From NCBI RefSeq assembly GCF_038725785.1, contig NZ_CP109796.1, positions 5,642,501 to 5,706,500 on the forward strand: a stretch of 64,000 bases of DNA, given 5' to 3'. Position numbers and translations under genes: made by a program. This document shows, piece after piece, positions 2,156 through 28,110 of this stretch (within the stretch, counting starts at the first letter, position 1; the number at the start of each line of letters is the position of its first letter). The stretch comes from Termitidicoccus mucosus. Lineage in GTDB: Bacteria; Verrucomicrobiota; Verrucomicrobiia; Opitutales; Opitutaceae. The notes beneath the pieces are model-generated. The model was not told the origin of the DNA. It saw only the letters and a list, made by a program, of their open reading frames with translations, and ran no database searches.

Positions 2156-2919
2156 AACGCATCGTCACCGCCACCCTCTTTTTCGCGGCGCTGCTCGTCG
2201 GATGGGAAATCATCAAGCGCGCGGGCATCGATTCGTTGCGGCTCATGCCTTCGACGCTCGATGTCGCCCGTTATCTCGCCGGCGTGCTCGCGGACGGCAC
2301 GCTCGCCTCGGCGTCGTTCGTCACGGTAAAGCGCCTGCTGCTCGGCTACGCCAGCGGCATCGTCATCGGCCTGCCGCTCGGGCTGCTCACGGCGCGCTTC
2401 AAGGTCTGCCAGGACACCATCGGGCTGCTCGCGCTCGGCCTGCAAACGCTGCCCAGCGTGTGCTGGGTGCCGATCGCGCTGCTGTCATTCGGCCAGACGG
2501 AGTCGGCGATGTTTTTCATCGTGGTGATGGGCACGCTCTGGTCGGTCATCATCGCGACCGACACGGGCGTGCGCACCATCCCGCCGATTTACGCGCGCGC
2601 GGCGCGCACGATGGGTTCGCACGGCCTGCATACCTGGATGAAGGTGATGCTGCCGGCGTCGCTGCCGTTCGTGGTGAGCGGCATGAAACAGGGCTGGGCC
2701 TTTGCGTGGCGCTCGCTCATGGCGGCGGAGATTTTTGTGACCATCCTGACCGGCTTCGGCCTCGGGCAGCTCCTGCACTACGGACGCGAACTCAATGCGA
2801 TGGACCAAGTCGTCGGCGTGATGCTGGTGATCGTGGTGATCGGGTTGCTGGCGGACAAAATCATGTTCGCGCCCGCCGAGCGTTTTCTCCACCGCCGCTG
2901 GGGGACGCAGGGGAAGTGA
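2152..2919 (+). CDS. ABC transporter permease, nitrate/sulfonate/taurine type
   Basis: Inner-membrane permease of the SsuC/TauC family, 255 residues, about six hydrophobic segments. It starts with ATG overlapping the upstream ATPase stop (ATGA). The cytoplasmic EAA loop is recognisable around residues 145-175 (ARAARTMGSHGLHTWMKVML followed by PASLP). The length is normal for the family. The stop codon at 2917-2919 touches the first arm of a 31-bp inverted repeat, so the gene is immediately followed by a hairpin rather than by a binding-protein gene. It works with the ATPase at 1250; the periplasmic receptor must be encoded elsewhere or be absent. Confidence 0.9.
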   Translation: MKRIVTATLFFAALLVGWEIIKRAGIDSLRLMPSTLDVARYLAGVLADGTLASASFVTVKRLLLGYASGIVIGLPLGLLTARFKVCQDTIGLLALGLQTLPSVCWVPIALLSFGQTESAMFFIVVMGTLWSVIIATDTGVRTIPPIYARAARTMGSHGLHTWMKVMLPASLPFVVSGMKQGWAFAWRSLMAAEIFVTILTGFGLGQLLHYGRELNAMDQVVGVMLVIVVIGLLADKIMFAPAERFLHRRWGTQGK

Positions 2920-3006
2920 AGTAACAAGTGACAAGTGGCAAGTAACAAGAACCAGCGCAGCCTCGCACCCGGCTTCTTGTTACTTGCCACTTGTCACTTG
3001 TTACTT
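2919..3006. repeat. Heptad palindrome, AAGTRRC type (31-nt perfect arms)
   Basis: Arm 1 (2919-2949) is four 7-nt units aagtaac-aagtgac-aagtggc-aagtaac plus aag. Arm 2 (2976-3006) is its exact reverse complement, with a 26-nt spacer. It lies between the permease stop and the convergent recJ end and could act as a bidirectional hairpin, but lacks a T-run. Related copies are at 12668-12766 (in rnpA) and one arm at 28079-28110. Confidence 0.9.
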
Positions 3007-4739: not shown

Positions 4740-4851
4740 AATGCGGAATGCGGATTTCGGAACACGGAATGGGGGCGCTTTCACGCCGGCTGCAAACGGG
4801 CGCGGAGGCGCCCGCCGTTAATTCCGCAATCCGCAATCCTAATTCCGCATT
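4740..4851. repeat. Heptad palindrome, AATGCGG type
   Basis: Left arm 4740-4770 reads aatgcgg-aatgcgg-atttcgg-aacacgg-aat (7-nt period, 31 nt). The right arm 4821-4851 is an imperfect reverse complement built of attccgc/aatccgc units. The spacer contains its own GC-rich inverted repeat (ggcgcccgcc region). The element fills the gap between secDF and recJ. A single arm of the same type is at 22881-22918 inside rsmI. Confidence 0.85.
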
Positions 4852-10954: not shown

Positions 10955-11022
10955 TCGTTCTCGTTCCCGAAACGTTGCGCAAAAAAGAGAGAACGGGAAC
11001 GAGTAAAAGAACGAGAACGATT
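10955..11022. repeat. Hexad palindrome, GAACGA type
   Basis: Imperfect inverted repeat: the left side reads atcgttctcgttcccg and the right side gaacgg-gaacga-gtaaaa-gaacga-gaacga-tt, a 6-nt period. It sits just after the lipoprotein stop and could double as a terminator hairpin, although no T-run follows. A related tract is at 47443-47496. Confidence 0.7.
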
Positions 11023-12018
11023 AGAAAACCCCGGGAGGTCTAGACAGATCTTGACCCATGAGGGGATCGAGGAGGAGAGGGGGCAAAAGGAGGATGCGCG
11101 GGTCGAGATGAGGGGCGTTATGGGCGAGGAGTTGGGCCGGGGTTTGGTCGGAGCGGGAGCGGTTTTTGCGGGCGAAGTTGAAGAAGTGCTGGTAGGTGGT
11201 GACGGAGGCGAGGAAGTGCCGGGTGCCGTGGAAGGTTTCGAGGTCGAAGAACTCGGCTTCGATGGTGGCGTGGGAGCTTTCGACGTCGGCGTTGGCGTTG
11301 GGCCTGGCGGGAGGGTTGAAGCGGTGGCGGGCGCCGGAGGCGGAGGAGCCGTGGAAGCCGTCTGGGCGGTAGTGGACGGTGTCGCCGTCGAACTCGGAGC
11401 CGAGGTCGGTGCGCACCTCGACCGAGGGTCGAGGCCGTGGGCCTGAGGTGGTCGAGGAGGCGGGACAGGGCGAGGTGGCGCAGGTTTTGGACAGCTCGGA
11501 GGGTAGGAGACGAAGAGCGCGCCGGTGGCCTCGTCGCGGATGGTGTATTGGAAGCGGGCACGGGCTTGCATCTGGGGCCAGTAATGGGGATGTCGTTGAG
11601 ATATTTGGTGTCCATCTGGAGGTGGGTGAGCGGGGCGTGGGCGGCTTTGATTTTGCGCAAGTCGGCCTTGCGTTTGTGTTTGCGCTGGCGGCGGCGTGTC
11701 AGCTGGTGATCGCGGAGGATGCGGTGGGCGGCGCCCTTGCCCGGGCAGGACGAACATGTCCACGAGGCGGCGGGCGCCGAAACAGGGGCCTTTTTCTTGC
11801 GGCGACGACGGCCTGCTCGATTTTCGGGGCGTGCACGCGGGCTGGTGATGGGGGCGGCGGGGTGATTTTGGAAGGAGTCGTCGCCGTCCTGCCAGCAGCA
11901 CCTGCACGGTGTTGCGCGCGCAGCCGAACTGGCGCATGGCCGCGCGGATGCCGTGGGCCGTGGCGTAGCGCACCAGTTCGTGGCGCAGGGAAAAGAGGTC
12001 TTGGCTTGCGCGGCTCAT
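11021..12018 (-). pseudogene. Degenerate DDE transposase (integrase-core, IS481/IS3-like)
   Basis: Remains of a transposase of about 330 codons, broken into at least three frames. The N-terminal frame starts at ATG 12018 (MSRASQDLFSLRHELVRYAT) and contains a helix-turn-helix (IRAAMRQFGCARNTVQVLL). The first catalytic Asp region (HLQMDTKYLNDI) is in a second frame near 11615-11660. The second Asp (RTDLGSEFDGD) and the Glu (ADVESSHATIEAEF) are in a third frame, 11021-11416. All three catalytic residues are still recognisable, so decay is recent or the frameshifts are sequence errors in GC-rich DNA. It lies within imperfect terminal repeats. Confidence 0.8.
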
Positions 12019-12291
12019 GACCGTGTAGAGTTTGAAGCGGGAGCCGGATGGGTTTTGCACACACCAGCTTCGCCTTGCGGAGCGCCCGGCTCCCGCCTTT
12101 TTAAACCTGAGACAGGCAGGGTGCGGGCCCCAAGCGGCCCGCACCCTGCCTGTCTCAGGTGGGCGGTGAGCCACTTGAGTCCCCGTTGGCCAAGCACCCT
12201 GAGCGTTGCCAGTTTCATCCCCGGTTCTTTCTTCGTTTGCTTCTTCGCTCCCCCGGGGCGTTGCCCCGGGTCAATATGTCTATAGGTCTTT
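11037..12291. mobile_element. Decayed insertion sequence upstream of rpmH
   Basis: About 1.25 kb around the broken transposase. The ends are imperfect inverted repeats: left ggtctagacagatcttgacc (from about 11036) and right, read inward on the minus strand, gacctatagacatattgacc (from about 12288). Outside them is an exact 17-bp direct repeat acgattagaaaaccccg at 11017-11033 and 12295-12311, which may be a long target duplication or a pre-existing repeat. The family is uncertain (IS481-like favoured). The insertion separates the lipoprotein gene from rpmH. Confidence 0.75.
12106..12159. repeat. 24-bp perfect inverted repeat inside the IS element
   Basis: Arms 12106-12129 and 12136-12159 are perfect reverse complements (beginning cctgagacaggcagggtgcg) with a 6-nt loop. 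It lies between the transposase start and the right terminal repeat, in the transposase leader. No T-run follows. It could hinder read-in transcription or be an inserted palindrome; the remaining 12160-12367 shows no gene. Confidence 0.85.
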
Positions 12292-12367
12292 CTGACGATT
12301 AGAAAACCCCGCCTTGACACAGGCGGGCGCGTCCGGTCATCTCTAGCCCCTTTTTCCCTTTCCAAAC

Positions 12368-12505
12368 ATGAAGCCAACATTCCGCCCACATCGCAAAAAA
12401 CGCGTCCGTAAAATCGGATTCCGCGCCCGTTCGGCCACCAAAGGCGGACGCAAAGTCCTCGCCAACCGCCGCCGCGTAGGCCGCAAGCGTCTCACCGTCG
12501 CCTGA
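12368..12505 (+). CDS. rpmH: 50S ribosomal protein L34
   Basis: 45-residue, very basic ribosomal protein of the large subunit. It starts [20 protein letters not shown] and ends [12 protein letters not shown], covering the whole family motif (RxRxxTxxGRxVLxxRRxxGRxxL). Starts at ATG 12368. First gene of the conserved rpmH-rnpA-yidD-yidC run. dnaA, which often precedes rpmH, is not here; the IS element and its 17-bp repeat end only 57 bp upstream, so the rpmH promoter may lie partly in or next to IS-derived DNA. Confidence 0.97.
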
Positions 12506-12546
12506 TACCGGCGCAGCATCCACCGCGCCGCAACATACTTGGCACC

Positions 12547-13014
12547 ATGCGCTTCCGTCCTCAACAGCATGTGAGGCGGCAGCGCGACTTCCGCGAGATT
12601 CGCGAAAAGGGCCGCCGCCATGATTGCGGCGGCTTTGTGTTGTGGTATTGCCGCGCCGCTGGCGCGGAAGTGACAAGTGACAAGTATCAAGTGACAGGAA
12701 CCCCCGCCGCCACCACTGCCGCCGCAGGCACTCCACTTGATACTTGCCACTTGCCACTTGATACTTCCGCGCCGCTGCCGGCGCGGCTCGGCGTCGTCGC
12801 CTCCTCTTCCGCCGTCGGCGGAGCCGTGCGCCGTGCGCGCGCGAAACGCCGTCTCCGCGAGATCTTTCGCCGCAACCAGCACCTCGTGCCACCCGGCTGC
12901 GATATCCTGCTCGTGGCGCGACGCGCAATCAATCAGCTTGAATATCGCGTGATGGAGCAAAGATTCATCGACGCTTGTCGTCGCATATTCAAACCGTCAT
13001 CCGATTCGCAGTGA
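12547..13014 (+). CDS. rnpA: Ribonuclease P protein component with in-frame palindromic insert
   Basis: Protein subunit of RNase P, which matures the 5' ends of tRNAs. Conserved parts are the N-terminal [15 protein letters not shown] and the RNR-type motif region [20 protein letters not shown] (about residues 91-110), followed by CDILLVARR. Between them, after VLWYCRAAG, about 32-41 extra residues are encoded by a palindromic heptad repeat (12651-12789) without breaking the frame, so the chain is 155 residues rather than about 120. Whether the insert is tolerated in the folded protein is unknown. The stop overlaps the GTG start of yidD (GTGA). Confidence 0.92.
12651..12789. repeat. Heptad palindrome within rnpA
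   Basis: Arms 12668-12698 (aagtgac-aagtgac-aagtatc-aagtgac plus agg) and 12732-12766 (inverted, acttgat/acttgcc units) enclose a spacer. Each arm is bordered on the outside by a GC-rich mini-hairpin: ccgcgcc-gct-ggcgcgg at 12651-12667 and ccgcgccg-ctgc-cggcgcgg near 12767-12786. The tract has the same unit type as 2919-3006. It is translated in frame as part of rnpA. Confidence 0.88.
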
Positions 13015-13436
13015 CACCCGCCGCATCCAGTCCAGCCGCCGCCCTCGCCCATGGCGTGACCATGGAGGGACGGCCTCCGTGCCGTCCGTTTGTCCCGGCT
13101 GGACGGCACGGAGGCCGTCCCTCCAGCGTACGCCGCATTTTTCGCATTCCGCAATCGGTGCTGCTCGCCCTGATAAAACTCTACCAGCGCACGCTTTCGC
13201 CCGTGCTCCCGGTTGTGTTTGGCCCCGCGTGCGGCTGCCGTTTTTATCCGACCTGCTCCCATTACGCCGCCGAGGCCGTGCGCACGCACGGCGCGTTGCG
13301 CGGCTCGCTGCTCGCCGTCCTCCGCCTGCTCAAATGCACCCCCCTGCATCCCGGCGGCATCGACCCCGTGCCGCCCGCCCCGCGCTGCCGCCGCGTGGAG
13401 GCCGGGACATCGCCCTCCTTGAATCTCAATTCTTGA
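13011..13436 (+). CDS. yidD: Membrane protein insertion efficiency factor YidD, extended N-terminus
   Basis: Small membrane-associated factor that aids YidC-dependent insertion. The family core is intact: [20 protein letters not shown], then the cysteine motif [17 protein letters not shown] and [19 protein letters not shown] start at 13011 overlaps the rnpA stop. Before the core lie about 45 unusual residues, part of which ([22 protein letters not shown] in two pieces) is encoded by a perfect 25-bp inverted repeat at 13063-13125. A shorter product from a later start is possible, but no good ATG occurs between the repeat and the core. Confidence 0.92.
13063..13125. repeat. 25-bp perfect inverted repeat within yidD
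   Basis: Arms 13063-13087 (tggagggacggcctccgtgc...) and 13101-13125 are exact reverse complements with a 13-nt loop. Each arm is partly self-complementary (ggacggcctccgtgccgtcc), a style shared with other GC-rich hairpin families in this window. It is translated in frame in the yidD N-terminus. Confidence 0.9.
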
Positions 13437-13452
13437 TTTCACTCCTTTCTAA

Positions 13453-15255
13453 ATGGACAAAAAAAACACCATCATCGGCATCCTGCTGCTTATCACCGCG
13501 TTTGCGGTGATGTATTACGGCCAGCAAGTCGCGCCGCCCAAGCCCGCGCCGGAAATCACGCGTCCGGTCGGTGAAAATCAGGCTCCCGGCCCCGCGCAGA
13601 GCACGCTGCCCGAGTCGTCGCCCTCGAACGCCGCCTTTGCCGCGCTCGCCGAAACCAACACCGACGCCAGTTTCGTCACCCTCTCGAACGACTTCATCAC
13701 CGCCCGCTTCACCAACTACGGCGGCGCGCTCCGCGACGTGGCGTTGAGAAAATACAGCCGCTCCGAGAAAAGCGCCGAACCCTACGTGTTCAACCAGGTG
13801 CACACCGCGCCCATGCTCGCGCTCAACGGCCTCGCCGGGCTCGGATACCGGATGCGCTACGAACTCGTCAGCTCGTCGGCCACCGAGGTCGTCTATCGCA
13901 CCGTGTTTGAAAACCGCATCGAGGTCACGCGCGGCTACCGCATCGTCCCCGGCGCGGGCTCCGCGGACGGCAAACAGGATCCCTACCGTATCCATCACGA
14001 AACTACATTCCGCAACCTCACCGACCACACCTCGTCGCTGCCCGTCACGCTCAATCTCGGCACCACCGCGCTCATCAGCGCGACCGACGTCGGCCTCTAC
14101 CTGAATGTCGCCGCCTACGACGGGGACGGCGCGCAGGTCATCGATCGCGGCAATCTCGAGGGCGGCGGCTTCCTCAGCTGGATCGGCCTGCGCAACAACC
14201 CGCCGAAATCCGAGTTTGTCCAGCCGGGCAACACCGTCTGGGGCGCGGTGAAAAACCAGTTTTTCACCAGCATCTACACGCCCGCCAAGCCCGGCACCGG
14301 CATCACTGTGCGCCGCGTCGAGCTGCCGCCGATCGCCGGCAACAGCCGCGCCAACACCGGCCTCACCGCCACCATGACGCTCGAGCCCGTGTCCCTCGCG
14401 CCCGCCGCCGAAAGCGCCATCAGCGGCGACCTCTACGTCGGCCCGAAGGAATACGCCCGCCTCTCCAAGTTCGAGCAGCGCCAGGACAAGGTCATGCAGT
14501 ATGACCGCTATTTCTTCAACCGCATCTTCTTCAGCGGGCTCATCGCCCCGTTCATGTATTCCATCATGAACTGGATGCACGGCTTCGTGGGCAACTGGGG
14601 CCTGGCCATCGTGCTCATGACGCTCCTGTTGAAAGTCGTAACGCTGCCCTTCACGCTCGCCGCCTCCCGCTCCGCCAAGCGCATGCAGAAAATCCAGCCC
14701 GAGATGCAGGCGCTGCGCGAGAAATACAAGGACAACCCGCAGAAGATGCAGAAGGAGACAATGGCGCTCTTCAAAAAACACCGTGTGAACCCGATGGGCG
14801 GCTGCCTCCCCATCTTCATCACCATGCCGCTCTTCATCGCCTTCTTCGTCATGCTGCAAGGCACCGCCGAACTCCGCTTCCAGCCCTTCCTCTGGACGGG
14901 AGATCTCTCCGCGCCCGACACGGTCGCGCGCATCTTCGGCCTGCCGATCAACATCATGCCGCTCCTCATGGGTGCGACCATGATTGTCCAGATGCGCCTC
15001 ACCCCGTCGCCCTCCGTGGACAACGCGCAGGTGAAAATGATGAAGTTCATGCCCGTGATTTTCACGCTCATCTGCTACAACTTCTCGTGCGCCCTCGCGC
15101 TCTATTCGACCATCAACGGCCTCTTCACCATCGGCCAGCAACTCGTCGTCAACCGCATGAAAGACCCCGCCGAGTCCGCTCCGGCCGCCCAAGCCGCCCC
15201 GAAGACCGACCGGAAAGGCCGCCCGATCATCAACGTCACGCCGAAGAAAAAGTAA
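13453..15255 (+). CDS. yidC: Membrane protein insertase YidC
   Basis: Oxa1/Alb3-family insertase of 600 residues. The N-terminal helix (IIGILLLITAFAVMYYG) anchors a large periplasmic beta-rich domain (about residues 30-350). The C-terminal insertase core begins with the helix containing GLIAPFMYSIMNWMHGFVGN, then LAIVLMTLLLKVVTLPFT, the cytoplasmic KRMQKIQPEMQALREKYKDN loop and CLPIFITMPLFIAFFVML. The tail is basic (KTDRKGRPIINVTPKKK), typical for ribosome contact. Last gene of the rpmH-rnpA-yidD-yidC cluster; 16-bp gap from yidD. Confidence 0.97.
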   Translation: MDKKNTIIGILLLITAFAVMYYGQQVAPPKPAPEITRPVGENQAPGPAQSTLPESSPSNAAFAALAETNTDASFVTLSNDFITARFTNYGGALRDVALRKYSRSEKSAEPYVFNQVHTAPMLALNGLAGLGYRMRYELVSSSATEVVYRTVFENRIEVTRGYRIVPGAGSADGKQDPYRIHHETTFRNLTDHTSSLPVTLNLGTTALISATDVGLYLNVAAYDGDGAQVIDRGNLEGGGFLSWIGLRNNPPKSEFVQPGNTVWGAVKNQFFTSIYTPAKPGTGITVRRVELPPIAGNSRANTGLTATMTLEPVSLAPAAESAISGDLYVGPKEYARLSKFEQRQDKVMQYDRYFFNRIFFSGLIAPFMYSIMNWMHGFVGNWGLAIVLMTLLLKVVTLPFTLAASRSAKRMQKIQPEMQALREKYKDNPQKMQKETMALFKKHRVNPMGGCLPIFITMPLFIAFFVMLQGTAELRFQPFLWTGDLSAPDTVARIFGLPINIMPLLMGATMIVQMRLTPSPSVDNAQVKMMKFMPVIFTLICYNFSCALALYSTINGLFTIGQQLVVNRMKDPAESAPAAQAAPKTDRKGRPIINVTPKKK

Positions 15256-22170: not shown

Positions 22171-22974
22171 TTAGAGGGTGAACCCTTCCGGGGCGATGAG
22201 GACGGTGAACTCGCCCTTGAGGCTGGTTCGGGCCAGGCGGTCGCGAATCTCGGCGGCGGGACCGATGAGGAAGGTCTCGTGGAGCTTGGTGACTTCCTTG
22301 GCCACGCAGAGGACGCGGACGGGGCCGAGTTTTTCGGCGATTTCGGCGACAAACTTGTCCACGCGATGGCAGCTTTCGTAGAGGGCGAGGGTATATTCGA
22401 AGTCGCGATACTTTTCCAAAAACGCGGCGCGGGCGGAGGATTTGGGCGGCAGGAATCCGGCGAAAAGAAAGCCATTGGTCGGAAGGCCGGAGGCGCTGAG
22501 CACGGCGGCGAGCGCGCAGGCGCCGGGCACGGGGACGACGGGCAGGCCGAGGCGGCGGCAGGCGCGCACGAGGCGGAAGCCGGGGTCGCTGATGGCGGGC
22601 GTGCCGGCGTCGCTCACGACGGCAACGGACTTGCCCGCGGCGATTTGCGCGGCGAGGTGTTCGGCGGCGGCGGTTTCGTTGTGATCGTGATAGGCGGTGA
22701 GTTCGCGGCGCGGGAGGCCGAGGCGGGCGATGAGCGCGCCGGTGGTGCGGGTGTCCTCGCACGCGATGAGATCGACGGCGGAAAGGATGGCGCGCGCGCG
22801 GTCGGTGAGATCGGCGAGGTTGCCGATGGGCGTGGCGACGACATAGAGGTGGCCGGGACGCGGGGTGAGGGAGGCGTTGGGGGAATGCGGATTGCGGGTT
22901 GCGGAATGCGGATTGTCCGCGTTGCCGGTGTCGGCGGGCGGGGTGGGGAGCGGGAGGTCGTCGGATGCGGGCAT
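22171..22974 (-). CDS. rsmI: 16S rRNA (cytidine-2'-O)-methyltransferase RsmI
   Basis: SAM-dependent tetrapyrrole-methylase-fold enzyme acting on C1402 of 16S rRNA. Homology begins at GHLYVVATPIGNLADLTDRA (about residue 41) with AILSAVDLIACEDTRTTGAL, then VSDAGTPAISDPGFRLV and FLPPKSSARAAFLEKY. The first 40 residues are not family-like and include ADNPHSATRNPHSPN, encoded by a heptad tract (22881-22918). A start after the repeat is possible only at non-ATG codons, so the repeat-derived N-terminus is probably translated. Ends 33 bp before the conserved stretch of the neighbouring rmuC leader. Confidence 0.92.
   Translation of the reverse strand: MPASDDLPLPTPPADTGNADNPHSATRNPHSPNASLTPRPGHLYVVATPIGNLADLTDRARAILSAVDLIACEDTRTTGALIARLGLPRRELTAYHDHNETAAAEHLAAQIAAGKSVAVVSDAGTPAISDPGFRLVRACRRLGLPVVPVPGACALAAVLSASGLPTNGFLFAGFLPPKSSARAAFLEKYRDFEYTLALYESCHRVDKFVAEIAEKLGPVRVLCVAKEVTKLHETFLIGPAAEIRDRLARTSLKGEFTVLIAPEGFTL
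22881..22918. repeat. Heptad arm in the rsmI N-terminal coding region
   Basis: Reads ggaatgc-ggattgc-gggttgc-ggaatgc-ggattgt, a 7-nt period, on the plus strand. Same unit type as the arms at 4740-4851. No inverted partner nearby. It is in frame within the extended N-terminus of rsmI. Confidence 0.75.
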
Positions 22975-28078: not shown

Positions 28079-28110
28079 TGTTACTTGTTACTTGCCACTT
28101 GTCACTTTCC
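28079..28110. repeat. Single heptad arm, ACTTGTT type
   Basis: Reads gttactt-gttactt-gccactt-gtcactt; same units as one arm of 2919-3006. In the intergenic region between the divergent OppD-like and GT9 genes. Preceded by a short GC-rich repeat (gaggcgtcgcg twice, near 28040-28072). Confidence 0.75.

Follow-up and report, generated by a model that had tools for sequence, protein, structure and literature searches.

The rnpA locus and its palindrome

The window, meaning the whole stretch of 64,000 nucleotides analysed here, belongs to a 7.9-Mb, two-contig genome of the family Opitutaceae (Verrucomicrobiota) and carries rnpA, the gene for the RNase P protein, at 12547-13014 on the forward strand. 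The gene lies in the order rpmH, rnpA, yidD, yidC and encodes 155 residues, with a palindrome in frame. Its product matches PF00825 at 68 bits across residues 3-146, straight through the stop-free insert, and the conserved blocks share one frame, as the preliminary description of this DNA had stated. The genome has no other PF00825 match and also holds a class A RNase P RNA (191 bits); read by eye, the gene for that RNA has long class A loops and no visible heptad insert. The rnpA core differs from that of the same-genus genome G077 at 17 of 327 nucleotides, 11 of them third positions, with a dN of 0.025 and a dS of 0.15 (rough values from few changes), and is under purifying selection. Because the PF00825 match is single, the RNase P RNA is present and the core is conserved against G077, rnpA looks functional. 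A hexamer coding score misses the gene (on the strand of rnpA its flanks score -0.12 and 0.09, on the opposite strand 0.26 and -0.18), and the call rests on Pfam, operon and conservation. A search of G046, a second same-genus genome that is 72% complete, gave no rnpA match. Upstream of rpmH, at 12106-12159, lies a long GC-rich palindrome with no Rfam match above the gathering score.

Within rnpA, AAGTNNC heptads make up an imperfect palindrome with a GC mini-hairpin on either side, the whole spanning 12651-12786; both hairpins had been described before and were recovered here, and the reading frame is open from end to end. On the forward strand, the left mini-hairpin (12651-12667; a perfect 7-bp stem with a 3-nt loop) is followed by the left arm (12668-12695), with the heptads AAGTGAC, AAGTGAC, AAGTATC and AAGTGAC. 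After a GC-rich spacer comes the right arm (12734-12766), in which CACTT precedes GATACTT, GCCACTT, GCCACTT and GATACTT, and then the right mini-hairpin (12767-12786; a 7-bp stem with a 6-nt loop). Arms were located by inverted-repeat search and direct reading, the right hairpin by direct reading. The search paired 32-nt arms at 12661-12692 and 12742-12773 with 84% complementarity, and an inner register of 26 nt at 12668-12693 and 12734-12759 with 92%. The claim of a palindromic heptad repeat open in frame within rnpA stands. The heptad core measures 99 nt, or 136 nt with the GC hairpins.

The strong hairpin that had been expected in the mRNA is also predicted by folding: 12640-12800 folds at -77.3 kcal/mol (z of -5.1), a stability equalled by none of 200 shuffles. 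An Rfam search of window positions 11000-15000 returned no family at its gathering score; the sub-threshold matches were microRNA-type and sRNA hairpin look-alikes, all below gathering scores, and were discarded. Comparison of the element with plasmids and phages by blastn gave no match at an E value of 1e-5. In the 64-kb window, the heptad arm pattern gave 13 overlapping matches with at most three mismatches (0.00 expected over 100 shuffles); these searches located another two-armed heptad palindrome at 2919-3006 and a one-armed array on the reverse strand at 28083-28107.

Copies of the repeat across the genome

A genome-wide search with the three-heptad pattern AAGTNNCAAGTNNCAAGT gave 119 overlapping matches, 60 on the forward and 59 on the reverse strand, and the reversed control gave none. 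Fifty-eight regions fetched from the genome contain 65 heptad clusters, two-unit clusters included, which a strict pattern divides into 20 two-armed and 45 one-armed elements; over the 20 two-armed copies the median core length is 105. By eye, the elements share only their arms and the short peptide these encode, and their loops vary in sequence and length.

Besides rnpA, 15 loci have a long ORF through the element together with a Pfam match on the same strand. Named by interpretation of those matches, the proteins are KsgA, a pseudouridine synthase, IspG, RF3, RarA, TrpC, a GxGYxYP hydrolase, an SASA/GDSL esterase, GH115, MnmE, an ABC exporter, RecD2, an AMP-binding enzyme, an SH3 protein and FeoB. 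The Pfam match clearly crosses or flanks the element on both sides in 10 of the 15, comes in two stretches in IspG and FeoB, and lies on one side of the element only in the pseudouridine synthase, the AMP-binding enzyme and the SH3 protein. Four loci (L080, L104, L110 and L126) stood outside the Pfam search. Among uncounted loci, L101 and L116, which have the opposite arm orientation and coding-like scores, gave no Pfam match, nor did the opposite-strand ORFs of L083 and L088; the opposite-strand ORF of L097 has a MazG match at residues 370-443, with the element at 192-200, and was set aside.

In all 11 one-armed coding cases the AAGT strand is the coding strand, and EVTSDKYQV is a recurrent theme of the sense peptides. 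Sense arms are hydrophilic (mean GRAVY of -1.3, n=16); the opposite orientation would read as mostly hydrophobic, Cys-rich peptides (mean GRAVY of +1.2 over 36 open frames).

Reading phase and stop codons

Since seven is not divisible by three, successive heptads of an array shift in codon phase until all three phases have been used. In the one phase that reads AAG as a codon, the units AAGTGAC, AAGTAAC and AAGTAGC place TGA, TAA and TAG in frame. The left-arm heptad of rnpA at 12682 occupies the phase in which AAGTGAC would read TGA. Across the 16 coding elements, the variable pair of the 17 units in this risk phase is AT in 11, GG in three, TG in two and CA in one, and none of the 17 is stop-forming. 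Stop-forming heptads make up 29 of 41 units in the other two phases of the same elements (Fisher p of 5e-7 against 0/17) and 127 of 216 in the remaining elements (p of 7e-7 against 0/17). The figure of 0/17 overstates selection, since the coding set was picked for open frames. When the other elements are read in random frames, 28 of 90 two-armed and 23 of 57 one-armed cases turn out open, often enough that rnpA alone proves little.

Another twelve elements are flanked, on one strand, by sequence that scores as coding-like, and in every one the upstream frame meets a stop in at least one reading; in one of them, L127, one opposite-strand reading is open. Pfam searches of seven of the twelve showed no domain broken by an element, gave no match for L082, L093 and L102, and placed different genes on either side of four: a BirA-like gene and CoaX, a permease and an ABC ATPase, a TsaD-family gene and alanine racemase, and rplX and rplE. 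At all four of these intergenic elements, which lie between co-directional genes (L119, 2488-2572; L100, 2534-2551; L134, 2365-2489; L079, 2467-2581), the upstream ORF ends at a heptad reading AAG TGA or AAG TAA. A heptad-encoded stop thus occurs even inside a ribosomal protein operon, between rplX and rplE.

The RnpA loop in the family

The palindrome lies in a variable loop between strands 2 and 3 of RnpA, residues 36-79 (12652-12783, forward strand), as delimited by family comparison and an AF2 model. The model is weak (three-sequence alignment, mean pLDDT of 54) and gives residues 37-78, between strands at 30-34 and 82-86, a pLDDT below 50. Its order of helix, two strands, the low-confidence segment with one three-residue strand, strand, helix, strand and helix agrees with the RnpA order described in PMC4919922. 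In a Foldseek search with this model the first 16 matches were RnpA structures, the best at an E value of 1.6e-3 and none below 0.001.

A match to rnpA was found in 140 family genomes, 50 of which stood outside the loop survey. The loop was measured as what follows the conserved F in the FVLWY block; 91 loci were tried, of which 12 were unparsed and dropped, leaving 79 genes, 78 of them distinct (L009 and L037 are one gene). Loop lengths run from 12 to 100 residues with a median of 18. The loop here has 49 residues, that of an Ereboglobus MAG 26, and those of some other genera 46-57, the latter mostly Ala/Pro-rich and in one genus bearing a different heptad family. The preliminary description had counted 32-41 extra residues; the figure shifts with the comparison chosen, 49 residues standing against the family median of 18 or the Ereboglobus 26. 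On this comparison the loop is evidently a hypervariable site outside the conserved core. Since long loops lacking clear heptads occur in other genera, it could have reached its long length before the repeat arrived.

Seven-nucleotide periodicity exceeds all 500 shuffles in only two of the 79 parsed loops, that of this rnpA and that of the rnpA of G053. Loops L012 and L155 have nominal p values of 0.02 and 0.012, about what chance would give in 79 tests. The G053 loop holds an unrelated heptad palindrome of CAGARNN units (lag-7 identity of 0.55; 0/500 shuffles), and this one AAGTNNC, and hence two unrelated heptads have occupied the same loop. CAGARNN units are dispersed in the genomes of G053 and of G005, from the same genus, with eight and 51 matches and none for the reversed control; the rnpA loop of G005 lacks them.

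Comparison with close relatives, which had been proposed as a check, found a decayed and expanded loop in G077, 291 nt against 138 nt here, with three perfect ACTTGCC units on the right, decayed AAGTGAC on the left and the frame open throughout. This loop has also gained GCC-type repeats. No clean empty site was found in G077 for rnpA, KsgA, TrpC or yidD; its four sites hold other low-complexity or decayed repeats. The TrpC loop of G077 that matches the AAGT-bearing one is itself repeat-bearing. In the KsgA of G077 (L204, 1200-1520), the loop that in this genome carries AAGT heptads is longer by about 76 residues, which consist of decayed repeats with CCAGTGT heptads.

Origin of the segment

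The segment in rnpA is very probably a copy of the dispersed AAGTNNC repeat that is translated and tolerated in a variable surface loop. Its position, its open frame, the copies throughout the genome, the lack of stop-forming units in the coding set, the variability of the loop and the decayed copy in a relative are read directly from the sequence. RnpA would be made with the loop included, with a near-neutral effect on RNase P, and the copies would owe their spread to mobility or to template copying. The repeat consists of AAGT(NN)C units, usually a few per arm and often in two inverted arms, dispersed through the genome. The rnpA copy sits in the hypervariable surface loop between beta strands 2 and 3 and would be read as extra residues, which RnpA would tolerate since this loop is not part of the conserved core. 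Within genes, copies would persist only with a safe unit (such as AAGTATC or AAGTGGC) in the risk phase; stop-bearing copies would last in intergenic positions, where the upstream gene can take its stop from a heptad. A search for an enzyme that mobilises the AAGTNNC repeat found none. A perfect stem of at least 6 bp abuts the first heptad in 10 of the 16 coding elements. In the other elements 14 of 64 outer edges have such a stem, and at random positions within the loci of the coding elements the rate is 4.3%. The sequences of these GC stems differ between copies, and for that reason the stems may be either the target of insertion or its product.

The alternative with most in its favour, itself unlikely, is that heptads arose in place by slippage and template switching in an already variable Ala/Pro-rich loop, with no dispersed element arriving. 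Loop length does vary widely in the family without heptads, GCC-type repeats were gained in the G077 loop, and slippage has been proposed for heptameric repeats, which are over-represented in bacteria (PMC4692102). The AAGTNNC alphabet, often with inverted arms, nevertheless recurs at dozens of loci in the genome, and independent slippage would not pick the same unit each time.

It is very improbable that the segment is excised from the mRNA, an outcome raised in the preliminary description, or that cleavage of the hairpin yields RnpA in pieces. The long, stable hairpin (z of -5.1) would suit such processing, and stem-loop transcripts of repeats in Neisseria have been proposed as substrates of RNase III (PMC2229807). 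No Rfam family reached its gathering score at 11000-15000 in the window, however, and the frame is kept open in this gene, in that of G077 and in the genes of the 15 further proteins, which argues against removal, as excision needs no open frame.

There is likewise scant probability that the element is a REP bearing a GTAG or CGTC tag and mobilised by a RAYT transposase, even though Opitutus terrae, another member of the family, has many intragenic GTAG REPs (PMC3733652) and the present genome has seven matches to the Y1 transposase domain. GTAG and CGTC each occur at one of 85 outer ends, 12641-12800 contains neither GTAG nor CTAC, and AAGT heptads occur at none of the seven Y1_Tnp loci within about 1.5 kb on each side (RAYT and non-RAYT domains being undistinguished).

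What we take to be the RNR motif of RnpA reads RAR in this rnpA. This departure from a motif named in PMC4919922 would fit a decaying pseudogene whose job another protein does, a reading that is hardly credible given that RAR occurs in many relatives and that the PF00825 profile is intact over residues 3-146, the RNase P RNA is present and the core is under purifying selection. The preliminary description had named a dead rnpA with a second intact copy elsewhere as the outcome that would tell against it; the genome has a single, intact match.

Relation to known repeats

Close parallels to the dispersed AAGTNNC repeat are the Rickettsia palindromic elements (RPEs), described as palindromes of 105-146 bp that form in-frame fusions with 19 reading frames of Rickettsia (PMC2229807). 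An RPE-bearing guanylate kinase, the one enzyme tested, was still active with changed substrate affinity, and RPEs occur also in the RNase P RNA gene of Rickettsia (PMC2229807). Both kinds of element are palindromes of about 100-150 bp lying in frame within conserved genes (PMC2229807, PMC10969869). In size and stem-loop form the rnpA element (99 nt, or 136 nt with hairpins) and the median core of 105 fall with the RPEs, as does the in-frame position in rnpA and 15 Pfam-matched proteins. RPE families are described as having a conserved peptide (PMC2229807, PMC10969869), whereas AAGTNNC copies have no full-length consensus and share only the 7-nt units of their arms, and the hosts belong to different phyla, Rickettsia in one case and Opitutaceae in the other. 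The likeness to RPEs drawn in the preliminary description therefore holds for the way of working, short palindromes in frame in conserved genes, and fails for membership.

O. terrae, also of the Opitutaceae, is the species in which intragenic GTAG REPs were reported as most frequent (PMC3733652). Like the coding AAGTNNC copies, these REPs sit wholly within ORFs of conserved proteins such as UvrA, and REP ends often supply the stop codon of flanking ORFs, as AAGTNNC heptads do (PMC3733652). REPs are short, GTAG-tagged hairpins (PMC3733652), whereas the AAGTNNC elements are untagged heptad arrays with no adjoining Y1 transposase gene seen. The main text of PMC3733652 does not mention RNase P or rnpA.

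As tandem 7-nt units, several per array, the AAGTNNC elements also qualify as heptameric simple sequence repeats. Those of Xanthomonas and Nostoc, with four units preferred and a mainly non-coding location, have 7-nt units with variable positions, and are dispersed and in some cases inverted, like AAGTNNC (PMC4692102). They are G-rich and under-represented in coding regions (PMC4692102), whereas a good part of the AAGTNNC copies is coding. YPAL/RU-2 of Yersinia forms coding fusions, and its targets span or adjoin dyad symmetry, as with AAGTNNC, but it is a 168-bp unit for which heptads are not mentioned where PMC2229807 treats it. MITEs are recognised by terminal inverted repeats and a target site duplication; the rnpA element has inverted arms, and no empty site for it was found. 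A literature search, to which subscription papers contributed little, returned no report of translated heptad palindromes.

Other heptad alphabets and implications

The AAGT pattern has at least one match in 46 of 150 family genomes, with most in this genome. The reversed pattern, frequent in some relatives (23 matches in G005, 24 in G053, 53 in G122 and 35 in G139), is therefore a clean null for this genome and not for the family; in G005 and G122 its matches are tandem TGAACNN heptads. Two other alphabets form 22 clusters in G005, G053 and G122, of which eight, in G005 and G053, have coding-like ORFs running through them; five of these ORFs have a Pfam match and three have none, and the coding score missed the G053 rnpA (L220). 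In the UvrA and an OppC-type permease of G005, heptads lie between Pfam-matched parts.

A broader reading, which we offer tentatively and regard as doubtful, is that the Opitutaceae alphabets AAGTNNC, CAGARNN, TGAACNN and CCGCAWT form a class of translation-tolerant modular elements. By swapping safe and stop-forming units in one phase, such elements could settle in the surface loops of essential enzymes (RNase P, KsgA, RF3 and TrpC) and make these loops longer and more diverse. On this reading two unrelated alphabets took the RnpA loop independently, and the elements would be an ongoing source of new loops. If this is true, heptad alphabets feed new protein loops continually and are more than passengers.

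Translated palindromes in Rickettsia and intragenic REPs in several genomes, O. terrae foremost, are already on record. What this 7.9-Mb genome adds is a different repeat, built from a 7-nt alphabet, that would likewise be translated and that extends even to RNase P protein, which is essential. Its 7-nt unit yields a simple, testable rule of survival inside genes, namely no stop-forming unit in one phase, and the copies provide many natural loop insertions in well-studied enzymes that are open to assay. The interest lies mainly in the scale, in the phase rule that follows from the 7-nt unit, and in an essential protein having been hit twice.

The CCGCAWT alphabet is present in the window, where it has seven matches with at most one mismatch against 0.44 expected; a pattern search places the heptads at 4740-4837, 13142-13155 and 22884-22911, and by eye CCGCAWT also trails AAGT heptads within several genes. 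At the 5′ end of yidD, 13062-13125 contains a perfect 24-bp palindrome (arms 13064-13087 and 13101-13124), in frame if the ATG at 13062 is the translation start. G077 has a decayed form of this palindrome in the same place, beside an expanded run of CCGCATT-type heptads.
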